Shown in pieces: positions 23,845 through 40,700 of a DNA stretch of 64,000 bases (its first letter is position 1; each line of letters begins with the position of its first letter). Source of the stretch: Verrucomicrobiota bacterium JB022 (GTDB taxonomy: Bacteria > Verrucomicrobiota > Verrucomicrobiia > Opitutales > Oceanipulchritudinaceae); the NCBI GenBank assembly GCA_030673845.1, contig JAUTCQ010000012.1, positions 371,218-435,217 of the forward strand, written 5' to 3'. Position numbers and translations under genes: made by a program. Below the pieces are notes generated by a model, which worked only from the letters and a program-made list of their open reading frames with translations, did not search any database and was not told the DNA's origin.

Positions 23845-25337
23845 GTATTCCCCACCCGCGTGGGGATGGACCGCTGACCGGCAAAATCCACTGGCTCCGC
23901 GACATGTATTCCCCACCCGCGTGGGGATGGACCGGCCGCGCCGCCTGGGAAACGTGGCAGCAGGAGGTATTCCCCACCCGCGTGGGGATGGACCGCCAGG
24001 ATAGCTGCGAGTCGAGGTGAGGTGGAGGTATTCCCCACCCGCGTGGGGATGGACCGAAAAGGCGGAGATGGCCCGCCAAGGCCGCGCAGTATTCCCCACC
24101 CGCGTGGGGATGGACCGCCGTCACAGTGGGGCCGCTCCTGCGCGATGTGGTATTCCCCACCCGCGTGGGGATGGACCGTGGGGATGGAAATTCACGTTTG
24201 CTCAGTGTGGGTATTCCCCACCCACGTGGGGATGGACCGGGCAGTTGACAGCAGACGCGTGATCGTCCACAGTATTCCCCACCCACGTGGGGATGGACCG
24301 ATGATCGCGCTGAAGGACGACCCGATCTGGCTGTATTCCCCACCCACGTGGGGATGGACCGGCTTCGCTGACCGTCAGCCAGCCGCCTTCCGTGTATTCC
24401 CCACCCACGTGGGGATGGACCGGCGTAGCGCTCGGCCACGCGGAGCATCTGCTGGTATTCCCCACCCACGTGGGGATGGACCGGCGTTTACGGCCACGTC
24501 ACCCTCTCCGGTGAGGTATTCCCCACCCACGTGGGGATGGACCGGCCTCCTGAACCGCTCAAATTTTCTCAAACGAGTATTCCCCACCCACGTGGGGATG
24601 GACCGCATGAGCCTCGATAAACGCATGGCGAATTTCTGTATTCCCCACCCACGTGGGGATGGACCGCCGACATCGACGCGGCGCTCGCCAAGCAGGCGGT
24701 ATTCCCCACCCACGTGGGGATGGACCGATGTCACACAGGGCATCATCGGTGATCTGCTCGTATTCCCCACCCACGTGGGGATGGACCGCTCGGCCAACTT
24801 TCAAACCATCATCACGTTTTGTATTCCCCACCCACGTGGGGATGGACCGGTTGGAGGGTAACGGGCAGGCGTTCATTCAGCGTATTCCCCACCCACGTGG
24901 GGATGGACCGTCGGCTCATGATGATCGAATCGTGTGTGGTCGGTATTCCCCACCCACGTGGGGATGGACCGCGCCCACGCTGATGCAGGCGGCAAAGCCT
25001 ACGGTATTCCCCACCCGCGTGGGGATGGACCGCGACAGGCCAGTCGCCTCGGCAAGCGTGGCACGTATTCCCCACCCGCGTGGGGATGGACCGGCGAGGT
25101 GAGCCGTGGATAAGCACTGGCTGGAGTATTCCCCACCCGCGTGGGGATGGACCGCATGGGCTTACACTCTCCCTCAGCCTGAGCCTGTATTCCCCACCCG
25201 CGTGGGGATGGACCGTGCCCTACGCCTACCAACCACGCCCTGACGCTGTATTCCCCACCCGCGTGGGGATGGACCGAGCATTGCGACTACGCCCAGAAGG
25301 AGGCCCAAGTATTCCCCACCCGCGTGGGGAGCTACGG
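23845..25337 (+). CRISPR. Type I-E CRISPR array, 25 repeats and 24 spacers
   Basis: Repeats are 29 bp and spacers 32 bp, with an exact 61-bp period from 23845 to 25309. The repeat starts GTATTCCCC, forms a 6-bp stem CCCCAC/GTGGGG and ends ATGGACCG, which would be the 8-nt crRNA handle. It is read on the plus strand. Two repeat versions occur, differing at base 14 in the hairpin loop: G in repeats 1-6 and 20-25, A in repeats 7-19. The last repeat (25309-25337) matches only for its first 22 bases, marking the trailer end. I saw no duplicated spacers by eye and no spacer obviously matching this window. Confidence 0.98.
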
Positions 25338-25362
25338 GTATATTAAGCGGGGGCCCTTGGGG

Positions 25363-26406
25363 TTAGCCGCGCCAGATCCAGGCGCTTTGAGTGCTATCGT
25401 AGAGGTAGGGGTAGAATTCGGGGGTGGCGAAGAACCAGCCGCCGCTGCCGTTGCCGGTGTCGTGGATCCAGAGCCAGAAGCCGGTATCGCCGGGAGTTTC
25501 CGGCCAGACCCAGCCTTGGAGGGCGCTGAAATACCAGTCGCCGGTGGGCCAATACCATTCGAACCAGTCGGAATAATACCAGCCGGCGTCTCCTGCTTGG
25601 CTACCGCCAAAGGGGTCGACGGGACCCTGCCCGCCTCCGAGGGTCGCGTGGATCGACACGTTGTCGAGCAAGGGGGAGTTGGCCTCGACGATCGCTCCTG
25701 TGAGCGTGCCGCGGATGAAGATCCGGTTGACGCCGTTCAGGGGCTCATGGCTGGAAAGATCGACCTCGTATCTGGTGTCGAGATCGGTGAGCGTGGTGGT
25801 GACGCCCGTGCTTTCATAGCTGCTGCCGTCGGCCGAATACTCCCAGGCGATGTCGTAGGTGCCGCTGGCCTGCATCTTGCCGGCAAAGGCGAGCGTCCAG
25901 CTATGGGCGACTTGTCCGTCGCCAACGTGGGCTTCGAAGACGAAGCTCTGGTCGCTCATCCCCGGGTCGAAGGCGAGGGAATAGTTGTTGACGAAATCCT
26001 GCCCTTCCTCGGTCAAAAAGGTGACCTTCTGGCTGTTGCTGAAGCCGACCTCGTAGTATTCACTGTTGGCCCCTTCGTCGTTGGAAACAAGATCCTCGAA
26101 ATGCGTGATGCCTCGCTCCATGGGGTCGTTTGCATCGAGCATGATGCTGGAGCCGAATTGCCCCCCGTAGTAAAACATTCCATAGCTGGTTTCCTCGGGG
26201 CCGGTTATCCCGGAGTAGAGGCCCGTGGTGTCGAGGCCACTGAAGTCGGCATACATGTTATCGGTGAACGTGTAGTCTGCGCCGACGAGGCTGTAGGCGG
26301 CGTATTGGGAAAAATCCCAGCCCGCCACCAGAATCTGCTGGGCAGACAGCATGGGAGCGGCGCTCGGCAAGAGGAGCCAAAGGCAAGTGCGCGTGATTGA
26401 TTTCAT
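25363..26406 (-). CDS. Secreted protein, paralogue 1, with Trp-rich C-terminal module
   Basis: The 347-residue protein has a signal peptide (about 1-23), then a domain beginning ILVAGWDFSQYAAYSLVG that is shared over about 240 residues with the genes at 26608 and 27999. Shared stretches include YYGGQFGSS, QKVTFLTEEGQDFVNNY, AWEYSADG and IFIRGTL. The domain is beta-rich and of unknown function. From about residue 270 a distinct Trp/Tyr-rich segment follows (WYYSDWFEWYW, WYFSALQGWVWPE, FWLWIHD, YPYLYD, AWIWRG). In the third paralogue this position is taken by a PEP-CTERM signal. A GTMAC-N8-TTGGTAGA box lies about 98 bp upstream. Surface or extracellular location is likely; no enzymatic motif was found. 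Confidence 0.8.
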   Translation of the reverse strand: MKSITRTCLWLLLPSAAPMLSAQQILVAGWDFSQYAAYSLVGADYTFTDNMYADFSGLDTTGLYSGITGPEETSYGMFYYGGQFGSSIMLDANDPMERGITHFEDLVSNDEGANSEYYEVGFSNSQKVTFLTEEGQDFVNNYSLAFDPGMSDQSFVFEAHVGDGQVAHSWTLAFAGKMQASGTYDIAWEYSADGSSYESTGVTTTLTDLDTRYEVDLSSHEPLNGVNRIFIRGTLTGAIVEANSPLLDNVSIHATLGGGQGPVDPFGGSQAGDAGWYYSDWFEWYWPTGDWYFSALQGWVWPETPGDTGFWLWIHDTGNGSGGWFFATPEFYPYLYDSTQSAWIWRG

Positions 26407-26504
26407 CTGGGTCTTGGATCTTCTGTTCGTGAGAGAGCAGCGTGGCCGCCTTTTGGGGGGCGGACCGGCCTATTTACAGAGGGTAGACGCGCCACTGGCG
26501 GGAA

Positions 26505-26525
26505 TCTACCAATCGCACGTGTTAC
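26505..26525 (-). promoter_or_regulatory. GTAAC-N8-TTGGTAGA box upstream of paralogue 1
   Basis: On the minus strand GTAAC (26521-26525) is followed after 8 bp by TTGGTAGA (26505-26512). The same arrangement occurs at five other starts in this region. It is 98 bp from the start codon. It is a probable ECF-type promoter or regulator box; the spacing is shorter than a standard ECF -35/-10 pair, so its exact nature is open. Confidence 0.65.
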
Positions 26526-26544
26526 AAACGTGCAAAACATTGGA

Positions 26545-26580
26545 CAAAGAATACGCGACCGCCCGAGGGGAGGCGGTCGC
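26545..26580 (-). terminator. Terminator-like hairpin after paralogue 2
   Basis: A 9-bp perfect stem (GCGACCGCC / GGCGGTCGC) is followed on the minus strand by GTATTCTTTG, 28 bp after the stop at 26608. The T-tract is weak. Confidence 0.6.
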
Positions 26581-26607
26581 GGACGATCAGGAGAGCTGGG
26601 GCCCTGC

Positions 26608-27669
26608 TTACAAGCTCGTGAGCAGGAGGACGGGCGCGAGGACCCACTTGCCGTTGGCCTCATCCCAGAGCCAGGGGAAGACGCCGGGCTCGGTGTAGAA
26701 CCAGCGCCATTCGTCCTGTCGACCGTCGTGAGCCCAGAGCCACACACCCACCCCATCGGCATCGGGCTCGGGGCGGACCCAGCCGGCGAGGGTGTAATAC
26801 CACTCGGGGCTCTCGGGCGAGCGCCAGTAGAGGCCGAACCACGGGGAGGTGTAGAAGTTCGCGTAGAGTTGCTTGCCGTCGAAGGGATCGGCAGGGAGGA
26901 CGTTGGCGCGGATGGCCACATTGTCCATCTGGGGCGAATCGGTCACATCGCCGAAGGCACCCAGCGTGGCGCGGAAATAGACCGCACCCGCGCCCTCGAG
27001 CCCGGCCAACGCGGCGGCGTCGAGGCTGTAGCTGGCAGCCTCCGGCGTCAGCGTGTGGACGATGCCGGTGTTGGTGTAATTGACCCCGTCGGCCGAGTAT
27101 TCCCAGGAGATGGTGGTGGCGCCAAACAGGGAAAGCTTGCCCGCGTAGCTCAGCGCCCAGCCGTAGCCTTCGCGCCCTGCACCGACGTTGGCCTGGAAGA
27201 CGATCTTCTGGCCCGCCATGTCGGGCGCAAAGTCGAGCATGATGCTGTTGACGAAGCCTTGGCCTTCTTCGAGCAAAAAGCTGGTCTTGCTGGTGTCGTT
27301 GAATCCCGCGCCCCATTGCGGGTGGATGGCCGCTTCGCTGTTGGCGCTCAGGTCGCCGCTGGTGGTGATGCCGCGAAAAATATCGCTGCTGTCGACGAGG
27401 GCGTCGGAGCCAAACTGGCCGCCGTAATAGAAGGTGCCGTAGTGGTATTCGTCTGGCCCGCTGAAGGCGATGGAGTTGCCGCTCTGGTCGAGGCCGCTGA
27501 AATTGGCCCACAGGTGATCGGTAAACGTGTAATCGAGGCCGATCAGCGAATAGGCAGCGTATTGGGAGAAGTCCCAACCGGCGACGAGGGTTTCTTCCGC
27601 TTGGGCGAGAGGTGTGCAGGCTGCGGCGGCACAGCAGAGCAACGTACGAAGGTGTTGGAGAGATTTCAT
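26608..27669 (-). CDS. Secreted protein, paralogue 2, with Trp-rich C-terminal module
   Basis: The 353-residue protein is a paralogue of the two flanking genes: signal peptide to about residue 24, then ETLVAGWDFSQYAAYSLIG, HYGTFYYGGQFGSDA, SFLLEEGQGFVN and SWEYSADGVNY. After about residue 270 it carries a Trp-rich module (SPWFGLYWRSPE, EWYYTLAGWVRPE, VWLWAHD, EWRWFYTEP, FPWLWDEANGKWV) aligned with that of paralogue 1. A short hydrophobic tail VLLLTSL follows. The gene has its own upstream box and its own downstream hairpin, so the paralogues are separate transcription units rather than one operon. The function is unknown; cell-surface attachment or glycan contact by the aromatic module is an inference. 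Confidence 0.8.
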   Translation of the reverse strand: MKSLQHLRTLLCCAAAACTPLAQAEETLVAGWDFSQYAAYSLIGLDYTFTDHLWANFSGLDQSGNSIAFSGPDEYHYGTFYYGGQFGSDALVDSSDIFRGITTSGDLSANSEAAIHPQWGAGFNDTSKTSFLLEEGQGFVNSIMLDFAPDMAGQKIVFQANVGAGREGYGWALSYAGKLSLFGATTISWEYSADGVNYTNTGIVHTLTPEAASYSLDAAALAGLEGAGAVYFRATLGAFGDVTDSPQMDNVAIRANVLPADPFDGKQLYANFYTSPWFGLYWRSPESPEWYYTLAGWVRPEPDADGVGVWLWAHDGRQDEWRWFYTEPGVFPWLWDEANGKWVLAPVLLLTSL

Positions 27670-27759
27670 GGTGTAGTCGGTTTGAGGCCTGCCCAGTAGT
27701 AGTAGCGAGAAGGTATCTGGAGCGGGCAGGATAAAGACTGGTCGTAACCGGGGACCATT

Positions 27760-27780
27760 TCTACCAACGCCGTCGGTTAC
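27760..27780 (-). promoter_or_regulatory. GTAAC-N8-TTGGTAGA box upstream of paralogue 2
   Basis: On the minus strand GTAAC (27776-27780), 8 bp, then TTGGTAGA (27760-27767). The spacing is identical to the boxes of paralogues 1 and 3. It is 90 bp from the start codon. Confidence 0.65.
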
Positions 27781-27813
27781 GCTTTAGTAAATTTGAAACA
27801 AGCTATAACGAAC

Positions 27814-27852
27814 AAAAAGAGAGAGCGCAGTCACAGTCGACTACGCTCTCTC
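27814..27852 (-). terminator. Rho-independent terminator after paralogue 3
   Basis: A perfect 9-bp stem GAGAGAGCG/CGCTCTCTC (27819-27827 and 27844-27852), extended by further pairing in the loop, is followed on the minus strand by TTTTTG. Confidence 0.85.
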
Positions 27853-27998
27853 ACATCGAACAGGTACTATACTGATTCAACCAACGGCAAGTGCCTTTGG
27901 GCTCTCTTCTCTCTCAGCCTTGGATCTGGCCTCGGTTGTTACTATCGATTCTCTATCACGAACCTGTGAGATGTCTCACTAACTGACTTGAACAAGGA

Positions 27999-28910
27999 TT
28001 AAGCGCTGCGTTGACGACGGCGCAGCAAAGCTAGGCCTCCCGCGAGCAGACCCGCGAAGGCGGCGTAAGTGGAGGGCTCCGGAATTCCGGGCACCGCAGA
28101 AATCGACCCCACGGAAATCGAAGCATTATCCAGGTATGGAATGATGCCCGCGCCGTAGTTGCTGAGAGTGCCGCGGATGAAAATCTGCTCCACGCCGTCG
28201 AGTTCGTCGACCTCGCTGAGGTCCACGGTAAAGCTGGTATCCAGAGCGGTGAGGTTACTCGTGACGCCCGTTCCCAGGTAGCTGGTGCCATCGAGCGAGT
28301 ATTCCCAAGCGATCGCGCTGTTGCCCCCGCTGCTCATCCCAGCGAAGGAAAAGCTCCAGTCCTCACCCAGGTTGCCTTCGCCCACATTGGCCTCAAAGAC
28401 AAAGCTTTGGCCCGCCATGGCGGCATCGAAGGCCAGTCGGTAATCGTTGACGAAGTCTTGGCCCTCTTCGGTCAGGAAGGTTACCTTCTGACTGTTACCG
28501 AAGCCGACTTGGTAGTATTCGCTGTTCGCGCCGCCGTCGTTGGAGGTGAGGCTGCCGTTATCGGTGATGCTGCGCGTGAACGCCTCGCTGGCCTGCAGCA
28601 TGACGCTGGAGCCGAATTGGCCGCCGTAGTAAAACGTGCCGTAGTGGTATTCATCGGGCCCCGTGATGCCAGAGTAGTTACCTGTGCGGTCGAGGCTGCT
28701 GAAGTTACCGTACATATTGTCGGTAAAGTCATAATTTTCCCCGACTAGGCTGTAGGCGGCATACTGGGAAAAATCCCAACCGGCGACGAGCATCTGGGCA
28801 GAAACAGCAGCCGTCGACGAGCCCGAAAGCAACAGCAGGAGGCTGATAAGTTTGTGGTTTTTCATGAGCTGATAACTGAGGGAGTGATCAATGAGCAGAA
28901 CTTGAGACAA
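27999..28910 (-). CDS. PEP-CTERM secreted protein, paralogue 3
   Basis: The 303-residue protein shares its main domain with paralogues 1 and 2 (MLVAGWDFSQYAAYSLVGENYDFTD-type start, YYGGQFGSSVML, QKVTFLTEEGQDFVNDY, AWEYSLDG). It ends with a PEP-CTERM sorting signal: PEPS motif in GIPEPSTYA, a hydrophobic segment FAGLLAGGLALL and the basic end RRRQRSA. PEP-CTERM proteins are exported and then processed by exosortase in exopolysaccharide-producing bacteria. No exosortase gene is in this window. The Trp-rich module of the other two paralogues is absent. The signal peptide may begin at the internal MKNHKL (start 28863), since the longer form has an extended N-terminus. Confidence 0.85.
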   Translation of the reverse strand: MSQVLLIDHSLSYQLMKNHKLISLLLLLSGSSTAAVSAQMLVAGWDFSQYAAYSLVGENYDFTDNMYGNFSSLDRTGNYSGITGPDEYHYGTFYYGGQFGSSVMLQASEAFTRSITDNGSLTSNDGGANSEYYQVGFGNSQKVTFLTEEGQDFVNDYRLAFDAAMAGQSFVFEANVGEGNLGEDWSFSFAGMSSGGNSAIAWEYSLDGTSYLGTGVTSNLTALDTSFTVDLSEVDELDGVEQIFIRGTLSNYGAGIIPYLDNASISVGSISAVPGIPEPSTYAAFAGLLAGGLALLRRRQRSA

Positions 28911-28987
28911 GTGGCCAAACCATCGCGCTTGAGCTACAGCACCATGTGCTTGTGTCGTCTTCTTTCGGTCGAAACCCGCGCTCAGAT

Positions 28988-29008
28988 TCTACCAACGCAG
29001 ATTGTGAC
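28988..29008 (-). promoter_or_regulatory. GTCAC-N8-TTGGTAGA box upstream of paralogue 3
   Basis: On the minus strand GTCAC (29004-29008), 8 bp, then TTGGTAGA (28988-28995). It is 77 bp from the 28910 start and further from the internal start. Confidence 0.6.
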
Positions 29009-29032
29009 GAATGCGTGAAACCGCCTTCACTT

Positions 29033-29070
29033 ATAAATAAGAGAAAGCGGCCCGCTTTGCAGCGAGCCGC
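29033..29070 (-). terminator. Rho-independent terminator after the beta-helix gene
   Basis: A 10-bp stem with one T-G pair (GCGGCTCGCT / AGCGGGCCGC, loop GCAA) is followed on the minus strand by TTTCTCTTATTT, about 50 bp after the stop at 29120. Confidence 0.75.
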
Positions 29071-29119
29071 GCCTGATGAAGATCCTGAGGCGAAAGGGGC
29101 GCAAAGCCCCTCTTGGCGC

Positions 29120-30682
29120 TTAGTTCGCGAGGAAGCCGCGCTTGTTGGCCGCCGTCCAGCCAGTCGTCCAGAGAGCGCCGGAGGGGGCGAAAGCACCGCG
29201 ATAGCTGACGTCGGTGAAGAAGCCGCCACCCAGCTCGGAGCAAGAGGGGTTGAAGTAGGCCGGCAGGTTGCCGGTCGGGCGCGGGTTGAGCGTAGCCGAG
29301 CCGTTGTAGTTCTGGTCTTCGCCCGTCAGCGAGAAGCTGGCCGGGTTGGTGAAGGTGCTGCCGCCATTGGCGAGAGCGGTCAAGGCGGCGCCACTGGGGG
29401 CCGTGACATCGCTCATGGTGAAGCAGCCCACACCGAGGGTGCCGGCGGTGGCGTTGTCCGCCGAGGTGAAGGGCGAGAGGCCGGAATTGGCCACTTCCAG
29501 TGCCACGGAGCTACCGGTGTTCACGGTAATGGAATTCACGAGCCAGCCGTTGAAGCCGTTGCGCATCTGGATGCGGCCCTTGTCGGTCGTGGTTTGCGTA
29601 GCGGCGGAGCTAGCAGGCAGATCGGAGCCGACCACCGTCATGTTGTAGACGAAGGGATAGGAGAAGGGCACCGGGCGACCGTCGGCATTGATCGTCACAT
29701 CGCCGCCGCGCTCGGAGCTGTCCTCACCGTCCCACTCGCCGGCCTTGTCGCCACTGGCGGAGCCGAAGGGGTCGCCGTCCGTCTCGGTAAAGTAGGGCAT
29801 CACCGCAAAGAGAAACTGAGCTTTGCCCGTGTAGCCTTGGTCGAAGTCGAACTGGTCGTCCCCTGCAAACACCACGGAGATATTCTTGATGTTGACGGTG
29901 CCGCCGAAGATTTCCAGACCGTCATCGAAGGTGCTGTAGATGTCGATAAACTCGACCGTCGTGCCCGCGCCAACGCCCGCGAGAGTGAGGCCGTTGAGCT
30001 CGTTGGCCACATCCAGCTCGTCACCGCCGTGGCGGATCGAGATGTAGCGCAGGATGCCGGAGTCGTCGTTGGGGTCGAAACCGCCGAACTCGGTGTCGGC
30101 CGTTTGCGGGGCAATGCCCTCGATGTTGCCGATACCGGCCAGGATGTCACCGCCGGCACCCGTGCCGGTGCCGAGGTTGGTCGGAGCGCTACCGAGCACC
30201 ACGAGACCGCCCCAGAGGCTGACGTTACCGTTGCCGTTGCCGTCGAGCGGAGCGAGCGGGCTGTTCAGCGGATCCTGGTCGAGGAAGTCGCTGGCCTGGT
30301 TGTGGATGCTGGGGTTGAAGCGGGTGTAGTTGCCAAGGCTACCATCAGCAACGCTGTCGTTGTTCACGTCGACAGCCGCGGTGGTGAAAATGACCGGGTT
30401 GGTCGAATTACCTTGGGCGTTGATGCGGCCCGTCTTCGTCACGAGCAGCGACCCGGGAGCGGTGGAGCCGGTGCGGGGTTGGCCACGCACGATCGTGCCA
30501 GCCTGAATCGTCAGGGTAGCGCCATTCTTCACATAGATGGGCCCTTCAAGGATGTAGGGGGCGCCAGAGGAGTTCCAGGTAGTGTTGCTGGTGATATCGC
30601 CGCTCACGATGGTGTAAGCGGAAGCCGAAGTGGCGAGAGAGGAAACCGCCGCGAGGGCGAGGAGGCAGGAGGTGTATTTCAT
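29120..30682 (-). CDS. Secreted right-handed beta-helix protein
   Basis: The 520-residue protein has a signal peptide (about 1-22, cleavage after TSASA) and a repetitive Gly/Asn/Thr-rich sequence predicted to form a parallel beta-helix: LEGPIYVKNGATLTIQAGTIVRG, GGLVVLGSAPTN, ILRYISIRHGGDEL and FDDGLEIFGGTVNIKNI. It ends with VSYRGAFAPSG and WTTGWTAANKRGF, a C-terminal pattern I associate with secreted proteins encoded beside TonB receptors in several phyla. No lyase active site could be assigned. It has its own upstream box of the same type as the receptor gene next to it. A role in substrate capture or surface structure for that receptor is an inference. Confidence 0.75.
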   Translation of the reverse strand: MKYTSCLLALAAVSSLATSASAYTIVSGDITSNTTWNSSGAPYILEGPIYVKNGATLTIQAGTIVRGQPRTGSTAPGSLLVTKTGRINAQGNSTNPVIFTTAAVDVNNDSVADGSLGNYTRFNPSIHNQASDFLDQDPLNSPLAPLDGNGNGNVSLWGGLVVLGSAPTNLGTGTGAGGDILAGIGNIEGIAPQTADTEFGGFDPNDDSGILRYISIRHGGDELDVANELNGLTLAGVGAGTTVEFIDIYSTFDDGLEIFGGTVNIKNISVVFAGDDQFDFDQGYTGKAQFLFAVMPYFTETDGDPFGSASGDKAGEWDGEDSSERGGDVTINADGRPVPFSYPFVYNMTVVGSDLPASSAATQTTTDKGRIQMRNGFNGWLVNSITVNTGSSVALEVANSGLSPFTSADNATAGTLGVGCFTMSDVTAPSGAALTALANGGSTFTNPASFSLTGEDQNYNGSATLNPRPTGNLPAYFNPSCSELGGGFFTDVSYRGAFAPSGALWTTGWTAANKRGFLAN

Positions 30683-30795
30683 AGGTGTCGGTAGTTGCTG
30701 CGTTATATTTAATTACAACGTTTCTAGGATTCGTCCGCACTTGATCGTTATAGACCTTGATACGAACACTCATGAGTCGACAAACCGCCCCAACA

Positions 30796-30816
30796 TCTAC
30801 CATTACAGCCTGTGAC
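30796..30816 (-). promoter_or_regulatory. GTCAC-N8-ATGGTAGA box upstream of the beta-helix gene
   Basis: On the minus strand GTCAC (30812-30816), 8 bp, then ATGGTAGA (30796-30803). One base differs from the other boxes (A for the first T). It is 113 bp from the start codon. Confidence 0.55.
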
Positions 30817-30943
30817 GTTTAGGCAAAACCAGCGGATTAATACACAAACCTTTGCCATATGGACACTACAGAATCAGCAGGACATGGGAAACTTCTTTTG
30901 TGCTTCAATTATGACAATTTCAAAGATCTTTCTGACCGTCCGT

Positions 30944-30973
30944 AAAAAAAGGCGATCTCTATCTGAGATCGCC
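30944..30973 (-). terminator. Rho-independent terminator after the STN receptor gene
   Basis: A perfect 9-bp stem GGCGATCTC/GAGATCGCC (30951-30959 and 30965-30973) is followed on the minus strand by seven T. It isolates the receptor from the beta-helix gene. The rest of the 30683-31006 gap has the box described separately and no gene. Confidence 0.9.
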
Positions 30974-31006
30974 CTTCTACCAACCCATCTTATTCTGAGG
31001 TTTTGG

Positions 31007-34000
31007 CTAAAACTCGTAGGTCAGCGAGATGGAATAGTCGCGCCCCACTCGGTAGGTGCGTTTATGATAGTCTCGTATCGTCATATAAGGGTCGTAAGTC
31101 AACTTGCGCTCGCTGTCGGTCAGGTTCTTGACGCTAAAGCTCAGGTGCAGTGTTTCCCGGAGCCGCTGACGGATGGCAAAATCGAGTTCATAGAAGCTGT
31201 CATCATACTCACCATGGACCCCTCCAGTAACGGGCCCCTCCACGCTGAGGACATTACTGATCGCGTTGTAAGCAATGGTCACGCGGGTGCCAGTCGATTT
31301 ATTATCGTAGGTCACGTCCACATTCGCAATCCACTCCGGCTGGTCGTAAAGGCGCCTCTCGGTCCGTGGGCCCTGAAACGGTGCATCGCTTGGAGGCCGA
31401 ATATTTGAAGGAGCATTGCGGTACCAATTCCCCCGGTTAGAGGTAGCGATATCCAGGATCGATTGTGGAACCCCCACCACCGCATCAATATAGGTATAAT
31501 TTCCTCCCAGACTGAAGTCGTTTAGAAAATCGACACGCAAAAAATTCAGCTGCTTCCGGAATTCGATCTCTACGCCCCGCAAGTATGCCGTGTTGGGATT
31601 ATTGATCCAAGTGTGCACGTTGTCATAGGCACCTGCAGAGAGCTGGACCCGTTCAATTGGCCGGTCGACTTCTTTATAAAAGAAGCTTGTAGCCACCAGA
31701 TCGCCCGTCACCTGATCGACGTATTCGATCCGGAAATCGGTGCTTCGGACGTCTGAGGTCTCGAGTTGGGCGTTACCAAGCGTGATTTCGAGTTCGTCTG
31801 GAACAAAGGCGAAGTAGCCGGTATATTCACGAAAGGAAGGTCGCGCGACGGTCTCGTTATACTGCAACCGAATCGCCCAGCCTTGCCACGGACGAAATGC
31901 CGCTCCAACTGAGGGCAGGAGAAACGTTCGATCGATTGATCCTGCAACGTAGGTTCCATCCTCCCCCGGGCCGAAGTCGAAAAGTTGGGCGAGTCCAGAT
32001 CCGCTATCATCCACGAAAAGCCCCTCCACCGTGCGAATTCTATCCTCCGGATAGCGCGTGTCGCTGGCCATCTGGATCTTCTCCGCACGAAAGCCAAGAA
32101 TTAGATCTACCTTTTCTTTCCAGGTAAATACAATCTGCCCAAATCCTGCTTTCAGGTCGCGGGAGGCATCCGCATCTGCGTCATAATTACTGGAAGATGG
32201 CCGGTAGCTCGCACCGGCACTCGGTAGATAAAGGTCTTCGGGGTCGTCTGCAGTGTTACCAGCCCGGAAAAGCGAACGCCCTGTCAAGACCGCGCGCTCG
32301 GATTCATCACTCGAAACACCCGCCAGCACCGTTGCCGAAAACGCCGGAGAAAGCTCCCATTCCCCGTCCACTTGGATGCGGGCGAAATCCTGCTCTTCGT
32401 CCGTAAAGCGCCAACTGCGGTAGTTGTTGCTATTTTGGTCAACGTTCTGGAAAACACGGAATTTATTCACCGAAGGATCGAAAATGTATTCGGCCGACCG
32501 TGCATCCGGCTCATCCGTCTGAGTCTTGCTACGGCTGAGTGTCCAGGAAATCTCTAATGGGCGCGATCCCCAGCCCGGTATGGCGTGGTCTCCCAGGAGT
32601 TGCAAGCTGGTCAGCTTTCGCTCCTCATAATAGAGCAGATCCCAGTAGTAATCATTGTAAATACCACGTTCGATGTCATCGAGGACCAAGGTGCGAAACA
32701 GGCCATCCCAACCGTGTTCGTCATGGGATCGCTCTTCGTTCTCGTATTCAAAGCGGCCGTTCTCGTATTTTGCGACGCTGTCCTCACCCGCCTGACTATG
32801 GAACAGGTTGAGTGTCAGGCGGTGATTGGCCTTCGCATCCAAGTCCAGCTGGACGGCTCCCAGAGCAGTGAGATCCACGCTCGCTTTGGATTGAGTGACG
32901 TCATAGCGCGGGCCGTGAGGGGTCATCGTGCCATACCAGGTCTCGAAGTAGGAGTCTCCCTCGCTATCACGTCTGAAGCCTGGCACGTAATTTCTCGTCT
33001 GGTAGCTGCCGTCGGTCGTCTTGTAAGAGCTGTCGTAGCCGATGGTGACCATTGCTCGGGCGCGCCTTCCCAGGAGATCGAAGCCGCCTCCTCCACTGGC
33101 AAGGAAGCTGAGCCCGGGCGGTGGGCTCTCGTGTTGCGCCACCAGATCGATTCCTTCCGGCAACACGATCTCATATCCCTCGCTGTCCCAGATAATTTCT
33201 CTATCGAGCTCCAGGAAACCCGCCACATTGGGCCGGAAGACATCCATTGCGCGGTCTTTTGTGCCCATCGCCCAGGAGTCACTGCGACCGGGGTTGGTGT
33301 AGGTCACGTAATCGCGCTGGGCACGATCGTTGAAGCGGGTGCCGAAGCTGATGGAGCCGAAGGGCTGGTCGGGAATCTCCGTGGTGATGATATTGATGAA
33401 GCCACCGGCGGCGTTGCTGGGGGCCTCTGGGGAAAAGGTCTTCGAGACCTCCAGGCGGCTCACGATGTCCGACGAAAACAGATCGAGGTGCACCCCCTGC
33501 TTTTCCGGGTCGGCGCTGGGCACAGGCACGCCGTTGACCAGCGTGGCGCTGTAGCGCTCGGACAGGCCGCGGATAACCGCAAAGCGGCCTTCGATCACGT
33601 TGACCCCTGCTACCCGCGCAATCGCCTCGCTCATATCGCTGGCGGCGTAGCGCGAAATGTCTTCGGAAGACATCAGGTTCTGGAACTTCACGTCTTGCAT
33701 GCGCAGCTCCAGTGCGCCGACGTCTTCGTCGTATTCGTTCTCAACCGCAAAACTGTCGAGGCGGAAGGTCTCCAGCGCCGGTTCTGCGGGCACGTCCTGG
33801 GCCGCAGCGGCATTCTGCTCGGGCCGACGCACGACGTCTTCCGGGGTGAGCGGGCGCATCACAATCTGTCCATTCATGCGCTGGAAAACGACACCCGCCT
33901 GCTCCGACGCCTGCCAGAACAACTCGGCGAGGCTCAGAGGGCGCCCTACCGGCAGCTGCAGTCGAGCGTCGAGCGGTACTTCGCCCGTCTTGTAGGCAAA

Positions 34001-34276
34001 CTTGTAGCGCGTCTGCCCTTCGCACGCGGCCAGGAACTCCCGCAGCGAAATTTCCGCGTTTTCAAAGCGCACCGTAGCCTCCACCAGCGCCTGATCCTGC
34101 TGGTAGGCAAACGTCTCCGCCTGCAGGATCGGCGGCAGCAGCAGGAGGCCTACAACAGCGCTACGAAGGGTCGTCCAGAGCCACGCGCCGCAGCGGCCTC
34201 GAGCCGAAAAACTGGAGCGCCTTTGATGACAAAAATCTATGTTCACAAACAGTCCTTGCATGAGTGTGGTTAGCAC
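31007..34276 (-). CDS. TonB-dependent receptor with N-terminal STN signalling domain
   Basis: The protein (1,089 residues) has a late signal peptide (hydrophobic core VVGLLLLPPILQA, ending near residue 53), then a secretin/TonB short N-terminal (STN) domain of about 75 residues (VRFENAEISLREFLAACEG to GQIVMRPL). A plug domain follows with IARVAGVNVIEGRFAVIRGL and SNAAGGFINIITTEIPD, then a beta-barrel ending YSISLTYEF. STN domains signal ligand binding to a periplasmic FecR-type anti-sigma factor. The ECF sigma gene is immediately upstream on the same strand and fecR is divergent, giving a complete surface-signalling trio. The ligand is unknown. A start at the second Met (34261) is possible. 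Confidence 0.92.
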   Translation of the reverse strand: MLTTLMQGLFVNIDFCHQRRSSFSARGRCGAWLWTTLRSAVVGLLLLPPILQAETFAYQQDQALVEATVRFENAEISLREFLAACEGQTRYKFAYKTGEVPLDARLQLPVGRPLSLAELFWQASEQAGVVFQRMNGQIVMRPLTPEDVVRRPEQNAAAAQDVPAEPALETFRLDSFAVENEYDEDVGALELRMQDVKFQNLMSSEDISRYAASDMSEAIARVAGVNVIEGRFAVIRGLSERYSATLVNGVPVPSADPEKQGVHLDLFSSDIVSRLEVSKTFSPEAPSNAAGGFINIITTEIPDQPFGSISFGTRFNDRAQRDYVTYTNPGRSDSWAMGTKDRAMDVFRPNVAGFLELDREIIWDSEGYEIVLPEGIDLVAQHESPPPGLSFLASGGGGFDLLGRRARAMVTIGYDSSYKTTDGSYQTRNYVPGFRRDSEGDSYFETWYGTMTPHGPRYDVTQSKASVDLTALGAVQLDLDAKANHRLTLNLFHSQAGEDSVAKYENGRFEYENEERSHDEHGWDGLFRTLVLDDIERGIYNDYYWDLLYYEERKLTSLQLLGDHAIPGWGSRPLEISWTLSRSKTQTDEPDARSAEYIFDPSVNKFRVFQNVDQNSNNYRSWRFTDEEQDFARIQVDGEWELSPAFSATVLAGVSSDESERAVLTGRSLFRAGNTADDPEDLYLPSAGASYRPSSSNYDADADASRDLKAGFGQIVFTWKEKVDLILGFRAEKIQMASDTRYPEDRIRTVEGLFVDDSGSGLAQLFDFGPGEDGTYVAGSIDRTFLLPSVGAAFRPWQGWAIRLQYNETVARPSFREYTGYFAFVPDELEITLGNAQLETSDVRSTDFRIEYVDQVTGDLVATSFFYKEVDRPIERVQLSAGAYDNVHTWINNPNTAYLRGVEIEFRKQLNFLRVDFLNDFSLGGNYTYIDAVVGVPQSILDIATSNRGNWYRNAPSNIRPPSDAPFQGPRTERRLYDQPEWIANVDVTYDNKSTGTRVTIAYNAISNVLSVEGPVTGGVHGEYDDSFYELDFAIRQRLRETLHLSFSVKNLTDSERKLTYDPYMTIRDYHKRTYRVGRDYSISLTYEF

Positions 34277-34302
34277 TCCAAGGACGTCACTGAGTGATGC
34301 AA

Positions 34303-34323
34303 TCTACCAAGGGGGCGGGTTAC
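34303..34323 (-). promoter_or_regulatory. GTAAC-N8-TTGGTAGA box upstream of the STN receptor
   Basis: On the minus strand GTAAC (34319-34323), 8 bp, then TTGGTAGA (34303-34310), only 26 bp from the receptor start and inside the 85-bp gap after the sigma-factor gene. It would allow the receptor to be controlled by the adjacent sigma factor. Confidence 0.65.
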
Positions 34324-34361
34324 ATTACGGCAACAACTGGTCGTAACGTAGTGCCTGCGCT

Positions 34362-34955
34362 TCAGCTCAAGATCTCGCGCAGACGGGGCAGCTCGGGGGC
34401 GATCTGTTTCATCGCGAGCACCATATGGTTTTGCACCGTGCGCTCGGAAATGCCCATCACGCGGGCGATTTCGCGGTAGCGCATGCCTTCGAAGCGGTTG
34501 AGGCGGAACACGAGGCGGCGCTGCACAGGCATGGCCTCCAGCAAGGCCTGGATTTCCTGGTCGAGCTCCTGGTAAACGCCCGCCCCGGGTAGCTCGTGCT
34601 CCGCCGGCAGCGTTTCGTGGTTCACATGGTCGAGCGATGTCACCGGCTCACGCCGGCAGAACCGCACGAGGTCGATCGACTGGTTCTTCACGGCGGTGAA
34701 GAGGTAGGTCTTGAGCGTCTTCTGGATCGAGAGCAGCTTGCGGCGCGTCCACAAGGTTTGGAAGACGTTGGCGACGGCTTCTTCCGCCAAATCGCGCCGC
34801 TGCACGATCGTGTAGGCAAATCGGGCCAGCGGTTGGTAATAGCGGGTAAAGATGGCCCGGAGCGCTTCTTCATTACCGGAGGCGAGCAGCTCGACCAAAA
34901 CTTCGTCCGTCAGCGTCTGCTGAGCGTGGTTCCGTTTCTCCAAAGCTTCCTTCAT
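34362..34955 (-). CDS. ECF-family RNA polymerase sigma factor (FecI-like)
   Basis: The protein has 197 residues from the ATG at 34955 (MKEALEKRN); a longer reading from 35024 adds 23 residues without sigma similarity. Region 2 is visible as LLASGNEEALRAIFTRYYQPLARFAYTIV with AEEAVANVFQTLW, and region 4 as LLEAMPVQRRLVFRLNRFEGMRYREIARVMGISERTVQNHM, a helix-turn-helix that reads the -35 element. No anti-sigma-like extension is present. It is encoded directly upstream of the STN receptor and divergently from fecR, so it should be held by that FecR and released on receptor signalling. It is the best candidate for reading the six boxes in this region. Confidence 0.93.
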   Translation of the reverse strand: MKEALEKRNHAQQTLTDEVLVELLASGNEEALRAIFTRYYQPLARFAYTIVQRRDLAEEAVANVFQTLWTRRKLLSIQKTLKTYLFTAVKNQSIDLVRFCRREPVTSLDHVNHETLPAEHELPGAGVYQELDQEIQALLEAMPVQRRLVFRLNRFEGMRYREIARVMGISERTVQNHMVLAMKQIAPELPRLREILS

Positions 34956-35139
34956 AGGAGGGGAAATGGGGGGTTCGTGAGGAAAAAGGGCAGCGAAAGC
35001 CCTGAGGCTCCCGCACAGGCCCAACGGCTTGCAGGCAAGGGCAAGCAGGCCTTGTTTCGGCTCTATGATCAGCGAGACGGGTATGCTCCGGTCAATCGCA
35101 ATCGCTTTAGCCGTCGAATTGTCACATCGCCACGCAAAT

Positions 35140-35161
35140 GTAACACGGAGCCGTTGGTAGA
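35140..35161 (+). promoter_or_regulatory. GTAAC-N9-TTGGTAGA box upstream of fecR
   Basis: GTAAC (35140-35144) is followed after 9 bp by TTGGTAGA (35154-35161), 38 bp before the fecR start. The spacer is one base longer than at the other five sites. It would place fecR and the downstream TonB operon in the same regulon. Confidence 0.6.
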
Positions 35162-35199
35162 TCGCCCGGCAAGTTGTCGACCTCTCCCAAAATACGCCG

Positions 35200-36267
35200 A
35201 TGGAAAATGGTAGAGAACATGACGAGTTTACGGCCCTGTGCTTGCGCTACCTCTCAGGAGAAGCGTCGAGCGAGGACCGTCGCCACTTGGTGGAAGCACT
35301 GCGCGACCCGGCCAAACAGGCGTATTTTACCGGCCTGGAAGCGGCCTGGAACGGATTGACGGAAGAAAGCCTTGAGGCCGCTCCCACCTTCGATGCCGAC
35401 GAAGCTTACGCGCGCTTTGCGCAAGAGCGGCTAGCCCCTAGCAAGCCTCGCCGCACTCATCGTCGCTGGTCTTACGCCGGCGCCCCGCTCGCCGCCCTCG
35501 GCCTCGCGGCCTGTCTGCTCCTGATCGCTACCTTTTATTTGCTGCAGGGCGTGGGGGGCAGCGATGCCGCCCCGGTCAAATGGGTCCATCGCCAGAATCC
35601 GCTCGGGCAAACCTCGATGCTGACTTTGGCCGACGGGTCGCGCATCTACCTCAACGCCGACAGCCGCATCTCGTTCCCCAGCGATTTTGGCAATGGAGAG
35701 CGTTTGGTGCGCCTCGACGGCGAAGCGTTTTTCGAAGTCTCGCACGACCCCGCCCACCCCTTTATCGTCGAAGCCGGCGAGCTACGCACTCAGGTGCTGG
35801 GCACGCGCTTCAACGTGCAAACCTACGCCGAAATGCCGCGCCATGTGGTGACGCTCGTCGAGGGCCGCGTCGCCGTTACGCCACCCCGCACGCCACAAAG
35901 CTGGTCGAGCGACCCCGTGATCCTGCAACCGGGCACGGCGCTGGCCCTCGATACGCGCACGCTGCGTTCGGAAGTCGAGACCGTCGACGTACGCACGGTA
36001 GGCGCCTGGCGCTTCAACCGCCTGATCTTTGAAGACATGCCCTTGGCCGAAGTGGCCCAGGCTCTGGAGCGCCGTTTTGGCGTGGACATGGAAATCGACG
36101 GCGAGACGGCCGGCTCCATGCGCATCCGGGCCGAGTTCGGCGAAGAACCCCTCGAAGAAATCCTCCAGGTCCTCCGCCTCACCGGCGGGCTGGACTATCA
36201 GCTGATCCAAGACGAGCACCGCCTCGAAAAAGTCATCCTGCGGCCGCGCCAACCGGCGGTGCGCTAG
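35200..36267 (+). CDS. FecR-type anti-sigma factor
   Basis: The protein (355 residues) has a cytoplasmic N-terminal region that binds the sigma factor (DEFTALCLRYLSGEASSEDRR), one membrane segment (about 93-115, APLAALGLAACLLLIATFYLL) and a periplasmic FecR domain (SMLTLADGSRIYLNADSRI, VRLDGEAFFEV, PFIVEAGELRTQVLGTRFNV). The C-terminal part (FNRLIFEDMPLAEVAQALERRF to the end) resembles the DUF4974/STN-like module that contacts the receptor. It is divergent from the ECF sigma gene and 22 bp ahead of the DUF3450-exbB-tonB genes. Regulated proteolysis on receptor signalling would release the sigma factor (family knowledge). Confidence 0.93.
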   Translation: MENGREHDEFTALCLRYLSGEASSEDRRHLVEALRDPAKQAYFTGLEAAWNGLTEESLEAAPTFDADEAYARFAQERLAPSKPRRTHRRWSYAGAPLAALGLAACLLLIATFYLLQGVGGSDAAPVKWVHRQNPLGQTSMLTLADGSRIYLNADSRISFPSDFGNGERLVRLDGEAFFEVSHDPAHPFIVEAGELRTQVLGTRFNVQTYAEMPRHVVTLVEGRVAVTPPRTPQSWSSDPVILQPGTALALDTRTLRSEVETVDVRTVGAWRFNRLIFEDMPLAEVAQALERRFGVDMEIDGETAGSMRIRAEFGEEPLEEILQVLRLTGGLDYQLIQDEHRLEKVILRPRQPAVR

Positions 36268-36289: not shown

Positions 36290-37069
36290 ATGAAACCGAA
36301 CCTCTTGCCGTTCCTGTGCCTCTGCGCCGCGAGTCCGCTGGCCCTCGCACAGGCCGAACATTTAACCGAAACGCAGCGCCTGATCGACAAATGGGTCGAG
36401 ACCGAGCGCATCATCTCAGCCGAGCGCAGCGAAGCCAAGGCCGACCTGGAGATGCTCGCCGCGACCCGCGACTTGTTGCGCCAGCGCGTCGATGCGTTGG
36501 AGGATACGATTGCCGAACTCAAGCACGAGGCCGAAGCGCTCAACGACGAACGCGTCTCCCTCGTGCAGGAGCAGACCCGGCTCGAAGCATCCTCCGCCGC
36601 GCTCGCCCACCAACTGGCCGGCTTTGAGGCGCAGCTGAAGCAACGCGTCGAAACCTTTCCGCCGCCCTTGCAGGAAAAGCTGGCCAAGCTGCTGGTCCAG
36701 ATCCCCGATCGCCCCAACGCCAGCGATGTCGAAGTGGGCAAGCGCCTGGTGACGCTGCTAGGGGTGCTTTCCGAAGCGGCCAAGTTCAACCAGAGTCTTA
36801 CGCTGACCTACGAGATTCGCGAGCTGGAAGACGGCTCGGGCGTGCAGGCCGATACGCTCTACTGGGGCTACGCCTTCGCCATCTCCGCCGACGCCAGCGG
36901 GCACGCCACCTACTTTGGCCGACCGAGCGAAGCAGGCGCCTGGCAGTTCGAGCGCCTGCAAGACCATCAGCGCGAAACGCTTCAGATCATCGAAATGGCC
37001 GAGGGCAATACCGATGAAGCCCGCTTTGTCTCGCTGCCCATCCCCTTCCCTGCCGACTCCGTCCGTTAA
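36290..37069 (+). CDS. DUF3450 periplasmic coiled-coil protein of the TonB operon
   Basis: The 259-residue protein has a signal peptide (to about residue 20, PLALAQA), then a long coiled coil (about 40-120, with DLLRQRVDALEDTIAELKHEAEAL) and a compact C-terminal domain containing YEIRELEDGSGVQADTLYWGYAFAIS. This is the DUF3450 pattern, found beside ExbB/TolQ-type genes in marine Gammaproteobacteria TonB2-type systems. It is followed after 5 bp by an ExbB homologue with its own periplasmic coiled coil, so the two may interact and extend the energy-transducing complex across the periplasm. That interaction is inference. Confidence 0.85.
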   Translation: MKPNLLPFLCLCAASPLALAQAEHLTETQRLIDKWVETERIISAERSEAKADLEMLAATRDLLRQRVDALEDTIAELKHEAEALNDERVSLVQEQTRLEASSAALAHQLAGFEAQLKQRVETFPPPLQEKLAKLLVQIPDRPNASDVEVGKRLVTLLGVLSEAAKFNQSLTLTYEIRELEDGSGVQADTLYWGYAFAISADASGHATYFGRPSEAGAWQFERLQDHQRETLQIIEMAEGNTDEARFVSLPIPFPADSVR

Positions 37070-37074
37070 GCACC

Positions 37075-38517
37075 ATGTATCGCTTTTTCCTACTTTCCGG
37101 CTGCCTTGCCTTGGGCAGCATCTCCGTGGCTGCCCAAGCTACGGGTGCGTCGGCCCAACAGAGCGCCCAGGCGCGCGTCGAGGCCAGCCTGCAAGAGCTT
37201 TCGCAGCTCCGCCAAGAGACCGCCGAGCAAAAGCAGCCGCTCTCCCGCGAAGTCAGCGACTTGCAGGAGCAGCTGGTGGCCCTTGAGGGTGAGCTGGCCC
37301 AACTGCGCCGCGTGCACGACAGCCGCGACGTGGACCTCGCGACCTTGCGCCGTCAGGTGGATCAGCTCCGCCAGCAAAACGACTTTATCGACGACCGCCT
37401 GCGCGAGTATGTGGGCAATTTTTCGTCGTGGATCCACTACAGTGAGATCCCGCTCTACGAGGAAGCCATCGCCCAGGCCGAGCTTGCCCCCAATAACGTC
37501 AACCTCAGCCCTCCGGAGCGGCGCGAGGCTCAGCTCCAGATCGTGCAGACGACCTTCGAGCGGCTCGACCACCAACAGGGCGGCTACACCTACACGGGCG
37601 AGGCCTTGAGCGAAGACGGCCTGCTGCACCAGGGCACGTTCTGGGCTCTCGGGCCGACCGTCTACTTCGCGAGTGCCGACGGCAAGGTGTCTGGCATCGT
37701 GGAAAAGCGCCTCAACTCGAATTTCACCACCGTGGTGCCGATCCCCGGCACGGAGCGCTTTACCTTTACCGCAGCGTCTGCCGACAACGCCGTCGCCATC
37801 CCGCTCGACCCGACCAATGGCCGCGCGCTCCGCATTGCCACCGCCACCAAGAGCATTGGCGAATACGTGGAAGACGGCGGCCCGATCGGCTATGTGATCA
37901 TCGTGCTGGGCACCTGCGCCATCCTGCTCGCGCTGTTCAAGATCTACGACATCCTCCGCCTGCATGTGGAGCGGCCCAAGGCGCTCGACGAGATACTTGA
38001 ACAGCTCGACCGGGGCGACAGCACCGCAGCCCTCAAACGGGCCCAACAAGTGCCGGGCCGCGCGGGCGAAATCATGGTGGAGGGTGTGCACCACTACCGC
38101 GAGCCGCGCGAGCTGCTGGAAGAGCTCCTGTACGAGCGCGTATTGCACACCCGCCCCACCCTCGAGCGCTTCCTGCCTTTCCTCTCGCTCACGGCTGCCG
38201 CCGCACCTCTGCTCGGTCTGCTCGGCACCGTGGTAGGGATGATCAAGACCTTCAACCTGATCACGATCTTCGGCACCGGCGACGCCAAGAGCCTCTCCTC
38301 CGGTATCTCCGAAGCCCTCGTCACGACCGCGCTGGGCCTGATCGTCGCCATCCCCGTCTTGCTGATCCATGGGGCCCTCTCCCGCATGGCCAAGCGCCGC
38401 CTCGGCCTGCTCGAACAGACGGCCGTCGCATTCCTCAACGGCGCAGAATTGCTGAAACAGAAGGCGGCCCGTCAGCCGCACGCGATCAAGCGGGTGTCGA
38501 GCCATGAAACTGTTTGA
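37075..38517 (+). CDS. Long ExbB/MotA/TolQ-type proton channel with periplasmic coiled-coil domain (TtpC-like)
   Basis: The protein (480 residues) starts with a signal peptide (to about residue 22) and a coiled-coil region (about 25-105, QLRQETAEQKQPLSREVSDL). It then has a periplasmic domain with similarities to the DUF3450 C-terminal part (SPPERREAQLQIVQTTFERL, YTGEALSEDG), a first TM helix near 275-298 (YVIIVLGTCAILLALFKIYDI) and the MotA/TolQ/ExbB domain (FLSLTAAAAPLLGLLGTVVGM, ISEALVTTALGLIVAIPVLLIH). This organisation matches the TtpC proteins of Vibrio TonB2 systems. It overlaps the next exbB gene by 14 bp. Confidence 0.9.
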   Translation: MYRFFLLSGCLALGSISVAAQATGASAQQSAQARVEASLQELSQLRQETAEQKQPLSREVSDLQEQLVALEGELAQLRRVHDSRDVDLATLRRQVDQLRQQNDFIDDRLREYVGNFSSWIHYSEIPLYEEAIAQAELAPNNVNLSPPERREAQLQIVQTTFERLDHQQGGYTYTGEALSEDGLLHQGTFWALGPTVYFASADGKVSGIVEKRLNSNFTTVVPIPGTERFTFTAASADNAVAIPLDPTNGRALRIATATKSIGEYVEDGGPIGYVIIVLGTCAILLALFKIYDILRLHVERPKALDEILEQLDRGDSTAALKRAQQVPGRAGEIMVEGVHHYREPRELLEELLYERVLHTRPTLERFLPFLSLTAAAAPLLGLLGTVVGMIKTFNLITIFGTGDAKSLSSGISEALVTTALGLIVAIPVLLIHGALSRMAKRRLGLLEQTAVAFLNGAELLKQKAARQPHAIKRVSSHETV

Positions 38518-39172
38518 GCAAGTCTGGGGCATCTGGCAGAGCGGCGGCTGGGTGATGATCGCCCTGGGCGGCCTCTCGCTCGCGATCTACACGCAGGCCT
38601 ATCAGCTCTTGATCTTTACCTGGCGCTGCCGTCTGCAGGGCGAGCCGGAAAGCGACTGGCCCTTGTGGATCCAGTATCTGCGCACCGCGCCGCCCGGCCT
38701 CACCCGCCAGATCATCGAATACGCCCGCGGGCTCGATCCGTCGCATGCCGACGGCATCCGCCACCGCTTCGACGAGATCCGCGACGACATCGTGGGCGTG
38801 GTCGACCGCCGGGTGCGCTACATCGAGACGATGATCACCACCGCGCCGCTGCTCGGCCTGCTCGGCACCGTACTGGGCATGCTCTCGACTTTTCTCGGGC
38901 TGGCGACCTCCGGCGGGGGCGAGTCGATGGAGACGGTGGCCAGCGGCATCCGCGTGGCGTTGATCACCACCGCCACCGGCCTCACCATCGCGCTGCCCGG
39001 GCTCTTCCTCTCGATGCTGATCCGCCGCCAGCGGCAGCAACTGGAGGCCGGCATCGCGCAGCTCGAATCCATCACGCTCTCCACTTTCCACCGGCAGGGG
39101 CTGCCTCATCAAAACGGCCACGAATCCAGGATCCCGGTCGGCAACGCCTTTTCGCCTCCGCCCCGGCGCTAA
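38504..39172 (+). CDS. exbB: ExbB/TolQ-type proton channel
   Basis: This 222-residue ExbB homologue has three membrane segments: about 17-37 (WVMIALGGLSLAIYTQAYQLL), about 115-135 (TTAPLLGLLGTVLGMLSTF) and about 155-178 (IRVALITTATGLTIALPGLFL). These are the conserved channel helices that use proton motive force to energise TonB. It is shorter and lacks the periplasmic extension of the preceding gene. The start overlaps that gene by 14 bp, and exbD follows after 15 bp. Both ExbB forms in one operon fit a TonB2-type complex. Confidence 0.92.
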   Translation: MKLFEQVWGIWQSGGWVMIALGGLSLAIYTQAYQLLIFTWRCRLQGEPESDWPLWIQYLRTAPPGLTRQIIEYARGLDPSHADGIRHRFDEIRDDIVGVVDRRVRYIETMITTAPLLGLLGTVLGMLSTFLGLATSGGGESMETVASGIRVALITTATGLTIALPGLFLSMLIRRQRQQLEAGIAQLESITLSTFHRQGLPHQNGHESRIPVGNAFSPPPRR

Positions 39173-39187
39173 CCCGCCGCCCACGCC

Positions 39188-40002: not shown

Positions 40003-40008
40003 GCCCCG

Positions 40009-40686: not shown

Positions 40687-40700
40687 ACCTCTCTTTTCTC

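Follow-up and report, generated by a model that had tools for sequence, protein, structure and literature searches.

Predicted composite promoters with an ECF sigma -35/-10 pair and a PhoB-type box at a FecI/FecR/TonB-receptor locus of a Verrucomicrobiota bacterium

In Pseudomonas aeruginosa, the extracytoplasmic function (ECF) sigma factor sigma-VreI of the PUMA3 surface-signalling system (sigma-VreI, VreR, VreA) binds its promoters only with PhoB. A pho box, described as two direct repeats, lies upstream of the ECF -35/-10 pair, and mutation of either repeat abolishes promoter activity (PMC4971064). By analogy, this is the nearest precedent for the locus analysed here, a surface-signalling regulon of the FecI/FecR/STN-receptor type in a 64,000-nucleotide stretch of the Verrucomicrobiota bacterium JB022 genome (contig JAUTCQ010000012.1, positions 371,218 to 435,217; hereafter the window). 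It is likely that six promoters of this locus are composite, joining the -35/-10 pair of the local ECF sigma factor to a PhoB-type box, with both signals needed for full output. To our knowledge, no FecI/FecR/STN regulon with a PhoB-type box in its promoters has been described in Verrucomicrobiota.

The window system is not classed as a member of PUMA3, as its sigma gene has no pho box and a small VreA-type receptor is lacking. In PUMA3, vreAIR is itself switched on by PhoB and VreA is receptor-like with no transport role, whereas the window sigma gene has no box and the window encodes a full TonB receptor (PMC4971064). The window half-sites also lie about 5 bp further upstream than those of PUMA3 by our own position count. 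The Escherichia coli FecI-FecR-FecA system is alike in having an ECF sigma factor, FecR, an STN-domain receptor and a sigma-controlled receptor promoter (predicted from sequence in the window). Unlike in E. coli, however, the putative targets include fecR and a dedicated TonB/ExbB/ExbD operon, every unit is served by a promoter of its own and a response-regulator box accompanies each promoter.

Three further systems share gene content with the locus. In the available part of a report on Flavobacterium johnsoniae (Bacteroidota), one of the clusters most induced by phosphate depletion encodes a beta-helix-type lipoprotein, a TonB receptor, FecR and a sigma factor, and the TonB receptor, beta-helix-type exoprotein, FecR and ECF sigma factor of PUSIII/PUSIV are co-induced by it; the proteins are linked to the type IX secretion system (T9SS), and that part of the report gives no promoter architecture (PMC8115612). 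The window differs in its PEP-CTERM or tryptophan (W)-rich secreted proteins and its dedicated TonB operon. In Caulobacter crescentus, the phosphate-starvation exoprotein ElpS (CC0170) is paired with the TonB receptor CC0171 and a type II secretion system (T2SS), the same exoprotein-receptor pairing as is found for the homologues of the window beta-helix protein in Sphingomonas and Indioceanicola; ECF/FecR control does not appear in the available part of that source (PMC2996285), and no T2SS is adjacent in the window. The Vibrio TonB2 system with TtpB/TtpC/TtpD has the same set of DUF3450, TtpC, ExbB, ExbD, TonB and TPR proteins (PMC6957404), but is an iron system, whereas the window set shares a sigma-type promoter with fecR.

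The predicted -35 and -10 elements

The promoter elements, their spacing, conservation and uniqueness, and the gene content of the locus were all read from the sequence. The original prediction was of a bipartite box, GTMAC-N8-WTGGTAGA, upstream of five leftward genes and, with N9, upstream of a rightward fecR. The box is exact at all six sites (26505-26525, 27760-27780, 28988-29008, 30796-30816 and 34303-34323 with N8; 35140-35161 with N9, 5' of fecR), and with up to two mismatches allowed, six matches were observed compared with a mean of 1.4 in shuffled windows. In the entire 4.35 Mb genome of the window (G000), GTMAC-N8/9-WTGGTAGA occurs six times, always at this locus, and never in the reversed control. 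The half-motif WTGGTAGA by itself was found 151 times, close to the chance rate, so the specificity lies in its pairing with GTMAC.

A third block overlooked in the original prediction, CGWCY, follows TTGGTAGA at a distance of exactly 15 or 16 bp in 6/6 window promoters and in 7/7 promoters of Puniceicoccaceae bacterium 5H (G001), a member of the same genus. The predicted promoters of the window are:

26485-26525, minus strand: promoter of secreted paralogue 1; GTAAC 26521-26525, -35 TTGGTAGA 26505-26512, -10 CGTCT 26485-26489
27740-27791, minus strand: promoter of secreted paralogue 2; distal TTTAC 27787-27791, GTAAC 27776-27780, -35 27760-27767, -10 CGACC 27740-27744
28967-29019, minus strand: promoter of secreted paralogue 3; distal TTCAC 29015-29019, GTCAC 29004-29008, -35 28988-28995, -10 CGACC 28967-28971
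30775-30816, minus strand: promoter of the beta-helix gene; GTCAC 30812-30816, -35 ATGGTAGA 30796-30803, -10 CGACT 30775-30779
34282-34323, minus strand: promoter of the receptor; GTAAC 34319-34323, -35 34303-34310, -10 CGTCC 34282-34286
35129-35182, plus strand: promoter of the fecR-TonB operon; distal GCCAC 35129-35133, GTAAC 35140-35144, -35 35154-35161, -10 CGACC 35178-35182

The core [CTG]G[AT]C is present at a spacing of 15 or 16 in all 20 aligned promoters and almost never at other spacings. Among the sites first collected by GTNAC and TGGTAGA only, CGWCY was present at that spacing in 11/11, where about 1% per site would be expected by chance (our own estimate from base composition). 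Since 11 of the 13 sites had been gathered before the -10 region was examined, CGWCY is an independent result for those 11. The remaining TGGTAGA-N15/16-CGWCY matches of G000 and G001 all fall within reading frames of at least 450 nt and are without GTNAC at the right distance. Judged by this geometry, TTGGTAGA is the predicted -35 element and CGWCY the predicted -10 element of an ordinary ECF promoter with a spacer of 15-16 bp.

This arrangement bears on an option of the original prediction, in which GTMAC and GGTAGA would themselves be the -35 and -10 elements of a short-spaced ECF promoter. Both blocks are indeed conserved and co-oriented, but a spacer of about 10 bp is incompatible with the distance between sigma2 and sigma4, and CGWCY gives normal spacing with GGTAGA as the -35 in 20/20 promoters. 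A short-spaced promoter is thus extremely unlikely.

Related promoters have a similar layout. Those of L071-L073 (L numbers denote individual stretches taken from the genomes compared), where the sigma factors are more distant relatives of the window one (39-43% identity), stand upstream of a receptor-beta helix-PEP-CTERM operon and carry AGGGTAGA or NTAGTAGT, 16 bp and GGTC, and those of G036 carry TAGTAAG, 16 bp and TGTC; these five promoters were selected visually from intergenic sequence and do not count as independent evidence on spacing. No published promoter consensus for the TIGR02985 sigma group was found in the literature searched.

When the genome and its relatives were scanned, as had originally been suggested, the proposed local, co-directional regulon with its adjacent ECF sigma/FecR/STN-receptor genes proved to be kept in the sister species, with no further copies in the window genome. 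In G001 the sigma orthologue is 61-64% identical and the entire locus is syntenic, with a duplicated receptor. The five exact GTNAC-N8/9-WTGGTAGA matches there are all at the syntenic sigma/receptor locus, and two variant promoters, upstream of fecR and of the third secreted gene, bring the total to seven. The receptor duplicate (L037/L038, C31:65-73 kb) retains an almost unchanged promoter and leader. In G015, from another genus of the same family, the locus has decayed to pieces of fecR, of the sigma gene (region 4) and of a secreted gene (L041:11900-13600), and two promoters are still recognisable in it.

Could the blocks be non-regulatory, having been copied along with the genes by local duplication of a single upstream region? 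The three secreted genes are paralogous, and in G001 the rec1 and rec2 leader was recently duplicated. However, the unrelated beta-helix, receptor and opposite-strand fecR genes have only the three blocks in common while their intervening sequences differ, and the blocks persist next to decayed genes in another genus (G015). Of all the explanations considered, this is the one given the least credence.

A scan of G000 with the full composite recovered the six sites, one metallophosphoesterase promoter of a second system (TGATAGA-N16-TGTC) and two other matches, which are common to G001 and resemble coding sequence. With so few others, the regulon of the window sigma factor seems purely local, and the adjacent sigma factor would drive all six units. 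Among the other order-level genomes sampled, no strict tandem-box-plus-TRGTAG composite was found save one isolated match in G260. A lone TTGGTAGA at 30976-30983, immediately ahead of the hairpin that follows the receptor gene, was rejected as a promoter, being without GTMAC and CGWCY.

The upstream tandem box and its probable phosphate link

GTMAC falls outside the predicted -35/-10 pair and, as the alignments read, forms the -35-proximal unit of a distinct tandem repeat, KTMAC-N6-GTMAC, which ends 8-9 bp before the -35. In 12/17 promoters a second KTMAC (at least 4/5 positions) precedes the proximal one by exactly 11 bp (shuffle mean 0.80, maximum 6 in 5000 shuffles); other offsets gave 0-4 of the 17, and with L071-L073 excluded the count is 9/14. 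Three repeats in phase were observed in L073 (GTCAC-N6-GTCAC-N6-GTCAC) and L071 (GTCAC-N6-GTCAC-N6-GTGAC), and two receptor promoters of G001 have GTCAC-N6-GTCAC. The other option of the original prediction, a separate regulator site, is upheld for the GTMAC half. PhoB and PhoP bind direct repeats with an 11-bp period and GTCA-like half-sites, and the box looks like the signature of a response regulator of this type.

Similar repeats were also noted elsewhere. In both species a gene for a small protein with a TonB C-terminal domain is preceded by a conserved triple 11-bp GTAAC repeat (L146:1501-1527, G000 C17:29775; L143:1501-1527, G001 C15:66234). An identical tandem box, GTCACCGAAACGTCAC, precedes an LRR-domain histidine kinase in both (L112:6239-6254 and L113:6627-6642), and in G000 the gene preceding this kinase encodes a phytase.

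It might be argued that GTMAC is an extended upstream element contacted by the sigma holoenzyme, with no separate regulator, given that it is found in every G000 and G001 promoter at a near-fixed distance and also at a target of the second-system sigma factor in the same genome. Such an element would not account for the exact 11-bp repetition in two or three copies, nor for the similar boxes without an ECF core at the alkaline phosphatase, the LRR kinase and the small TonB-like gene. Furthermore, GTMAC is absent at the G036 promoters of the same sigma family, and this explanation is considered very improbable.

One line of evidence for a link to phosphate comes from a matrix built from the ECF promoters (16 training sites) and scanned upstream of other genes. 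Strong matches were found in the same genome at an alkaline phosphatase (PF00245) and a metallophosphoesterase (PF00149), at a TonB receptor gene adjoining a phytase, and at the fecR, receptor and sigma genes of the second system on contig C20, where the site of the receptor (receptor-2) falls within the preceding coding sequence. Genes for an alkaline phosphatase and for two metallophosphoesterases belong to this second ECF/FecR/TonB-receptor locus (C20 about 79-96 kb; L110:3241-8466, L039). Some 16 kb separate its fecR from the sole sigma gene found there, which is 38% identical to the window sigma factor, and the promoters of the locus carry TAGTAGC or TGATAGA, N16 and TGTC, with tandem boxes.

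Homologues of the beta-helix protein (tblastn, mostly 27-34% identity) were found on plasmids. Alteromonas macleodii pBGP9 carries, in this order, phoB, phoR, a phosphate-binding protein (pstS), 2OG oxygenase, beta-helix protein, TonB receptor, DUF3450, ExbB, ExbB, ExbD and TonB; the Pseudoalteromonas order is DUF3450, ExbB, ExbB, ExbD, TonB, a hypothetical gene, beta-helix protein and receptor; and Sphingomonas and Indioceanicola have the series beta-helix protein, receptor and T2SS. Most of the operon set that follows fecR in the window is thus present on the Alteromonas/Pseudoalteromonas plasmids. The Alteromonas beta-helix and DUF3450 genes have the perfect tandem boxes GTAAC-N6-GTCAC and GTAAT-N6-GTCAC. 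The phosphate-responsive F. johnsoniae cluster and the ElpS/CC0171 pair of C. crescentus, described above, also speak for a phosphate link.

Several observations weigh against PhoB control of these promoters. Three of the six distal half-sites in G000 are poor (TTTGC or GTTGC), and the half-site at fecR of G001 is 5 bp away instead of 8-9. The KTMAC pair by itself is not enriched genome-wide (32 compared with 26 in the reversed control), so that single pairs are no evidence by themselves. The related G036 promoters have no consistent box, and hence a promoter of this sigma type can exist without one. In addition, the box at the pstS promoters is weak (matrix p about 0.04-0.06) and the matrix scan found none at the phoB-like gene. 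The phosphate neighbourhoods in other phyla may also reflect horizontal gene sharing in which the regulation was not necessarily carried along.

Some of these points would suit a different OmpR/PhoB-family response regulator binding the tandem box in answer to a non-phosphate signal, the ECF part of the promoters being unchanged. Tandem sites with an 11-bp period are common to PhoB-family regulators, the pstS boxes are weak, and a strong box also precedes the LRR histidine kinase. The best PhoB homologue (G000:C13:258613, beside a PhoR/PnpS-like kinase) scores 238.9, below the PhoB equivalog cut-off of 296.2. On the other hand, the box occurs at phosphatase genes in the same genome, and in Alteromonas the homologous module lies beside phoBR-pstS and has perfect boxes. 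Another regulator is accordingly regarded as unlikely, though less so than the other alternatives.

Genes of the locus and the proposed regulation

The genes concerned are as follows:

34362-35024, minus strand: ECF sigma factor gene of TIGR02985 type (Pfam sigma-70 r2 and r4_2), likely start ATG 34955
35200-36267, plus strand: fecR, membrane anti-sigma factor/transducer (PF04773 and PF16344)
36290-42062, plus strand: operon after fecR, encoding DUF3450, ExbB-type with coiled coil, ExbB, two ExbD, TonB and TPR proteins (Pfam)
31007-34276, minus strand: TonB-dependent receptor with N-terminal STN domain, full plug and barrel (PF07715 and PF00593)
29120-30682, minus strand: secreted protein of beta-helix type, homologous to phosphate-locus proteins (tblastn homologues)
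27999-28865, minus strand: secreted paralogue 3, PEP-CTERM tail (TIGR02595; paralogy), start corrected to ATG 28865
26608-27669, minus strand: secreted paralogue 2, W-rich C-terminus (homologues in G001)
25363-26406, minus strand: secreted paralogue 1, W-rich C-terminus (homologues in G001)

The sigma factor exceeds the TIGR02985 cut-off (135.1 bits against 126.4), and its gene adjoins that of the FecR-type anti-sigma factor. No box-type promoter was found on the sigma gene's own strand in G000 or G001; the best matrix score there, 7.8, is below all 16 training sites and corresponds to the fecR box region read on the opposite strand. In the operon after fecR, whose gene order is identical in G001, the DUF3450 protein is presumably TtpB-like, the coiled-coil ExbB-type protein TtpC-like and the TPR protein TtpD-like.

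With only about 5 bp between the predicted -10 and the listed receptor start, GTG 34276, translation must begin further downstream, probably at ATG 34261. A Pfam search of the receptor gave no STN domain, even with a relaxed threshold. A domain model of its N-terminal 86 residues (33848-34105; pLDDT 88) matched the FecA/FpvA/PupB signalling domains in Foldseek (query TM 0.60-0.66, probability 0.97-1.0, E about 0.02-0.09) and also the N0 domain of secretins. The description of this protein as an STN receptor in the original prediction is therefore borne out at the level of the fold.

For the beta-helix protein, Pfam gives no family, the PDB holds no sequence relative and the AlphaFold model (pLDDT 38) is too low for a fold search; the name follows the original label and the repeat-like sequence. 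Its putative kinship with the ElpS/FI-FII family of beta-helix exoproteins (ElpS, Fjoh_3856) has indirect support from the gene neighbourhoods they have in common. Two of the three secreted paralogues (25363-27669) have a tryptophan-rich C-terminal region in place of PEP-CTERM, with no family matched. Directly downstream of paralogue 1 is a CRISPR-like array (23849-25340; repeat type ATCCCCACGCGGGTGGGGA, 61-bp spacing) with 12 exact repeat matches and a gap at 24154-25008. Rfam gave no family at the locus, and only two tRNAs elsewhere.

From this gene content and the composite promoters, we infer recognition by the window sigma factor, PhoB as the binder, a two-signal logic and the kind of ligand. 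Binding of a ligand, probably an organic phosphorus compound, to the STN receptor would send a signal via FecR that releases the sigma factor, while low phosphate would activate PhoB, which would help the sigma-RNA polymerase onto the composite promoters. Full output would take both inputs and would comprise the receptor, the beta-helix protein, all three of the secreted paralogues, FecR and the ExbB/ExbD/TonB energiser that goes with it. As fecR carries a composite promoter and the sigma gene does not, the loop is expected to be negative; FecR made under sigma control would provide negative feedback and not a self-amplifying loop. The chances appear evenly balanced that this is, in full, a two-signal regulon of Verrucomicrobiota, with the anti-sigma factor feeding back negatively, in which production of an organophosphorus receptor, the secreted proteins that accompany it and a dedicated TonB motor requires both the ligand and a shortage of phosphate.

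The elements described here provide a promoter model, -35 TGGTAGA and -10 CGWC, for a Bacteroidota-type FecI sigma factor (TIGR02985) in Verrucomicrobiota. The coupling of a response regulator with an ECF sigma factor at the promoter, experimentally shown in Pseudomonas, may recur in a distant phylum. If this is true, uncharacterised beta-helix proteins, secreted paralogues and their receptor would be tied to phosphorus scavenging.

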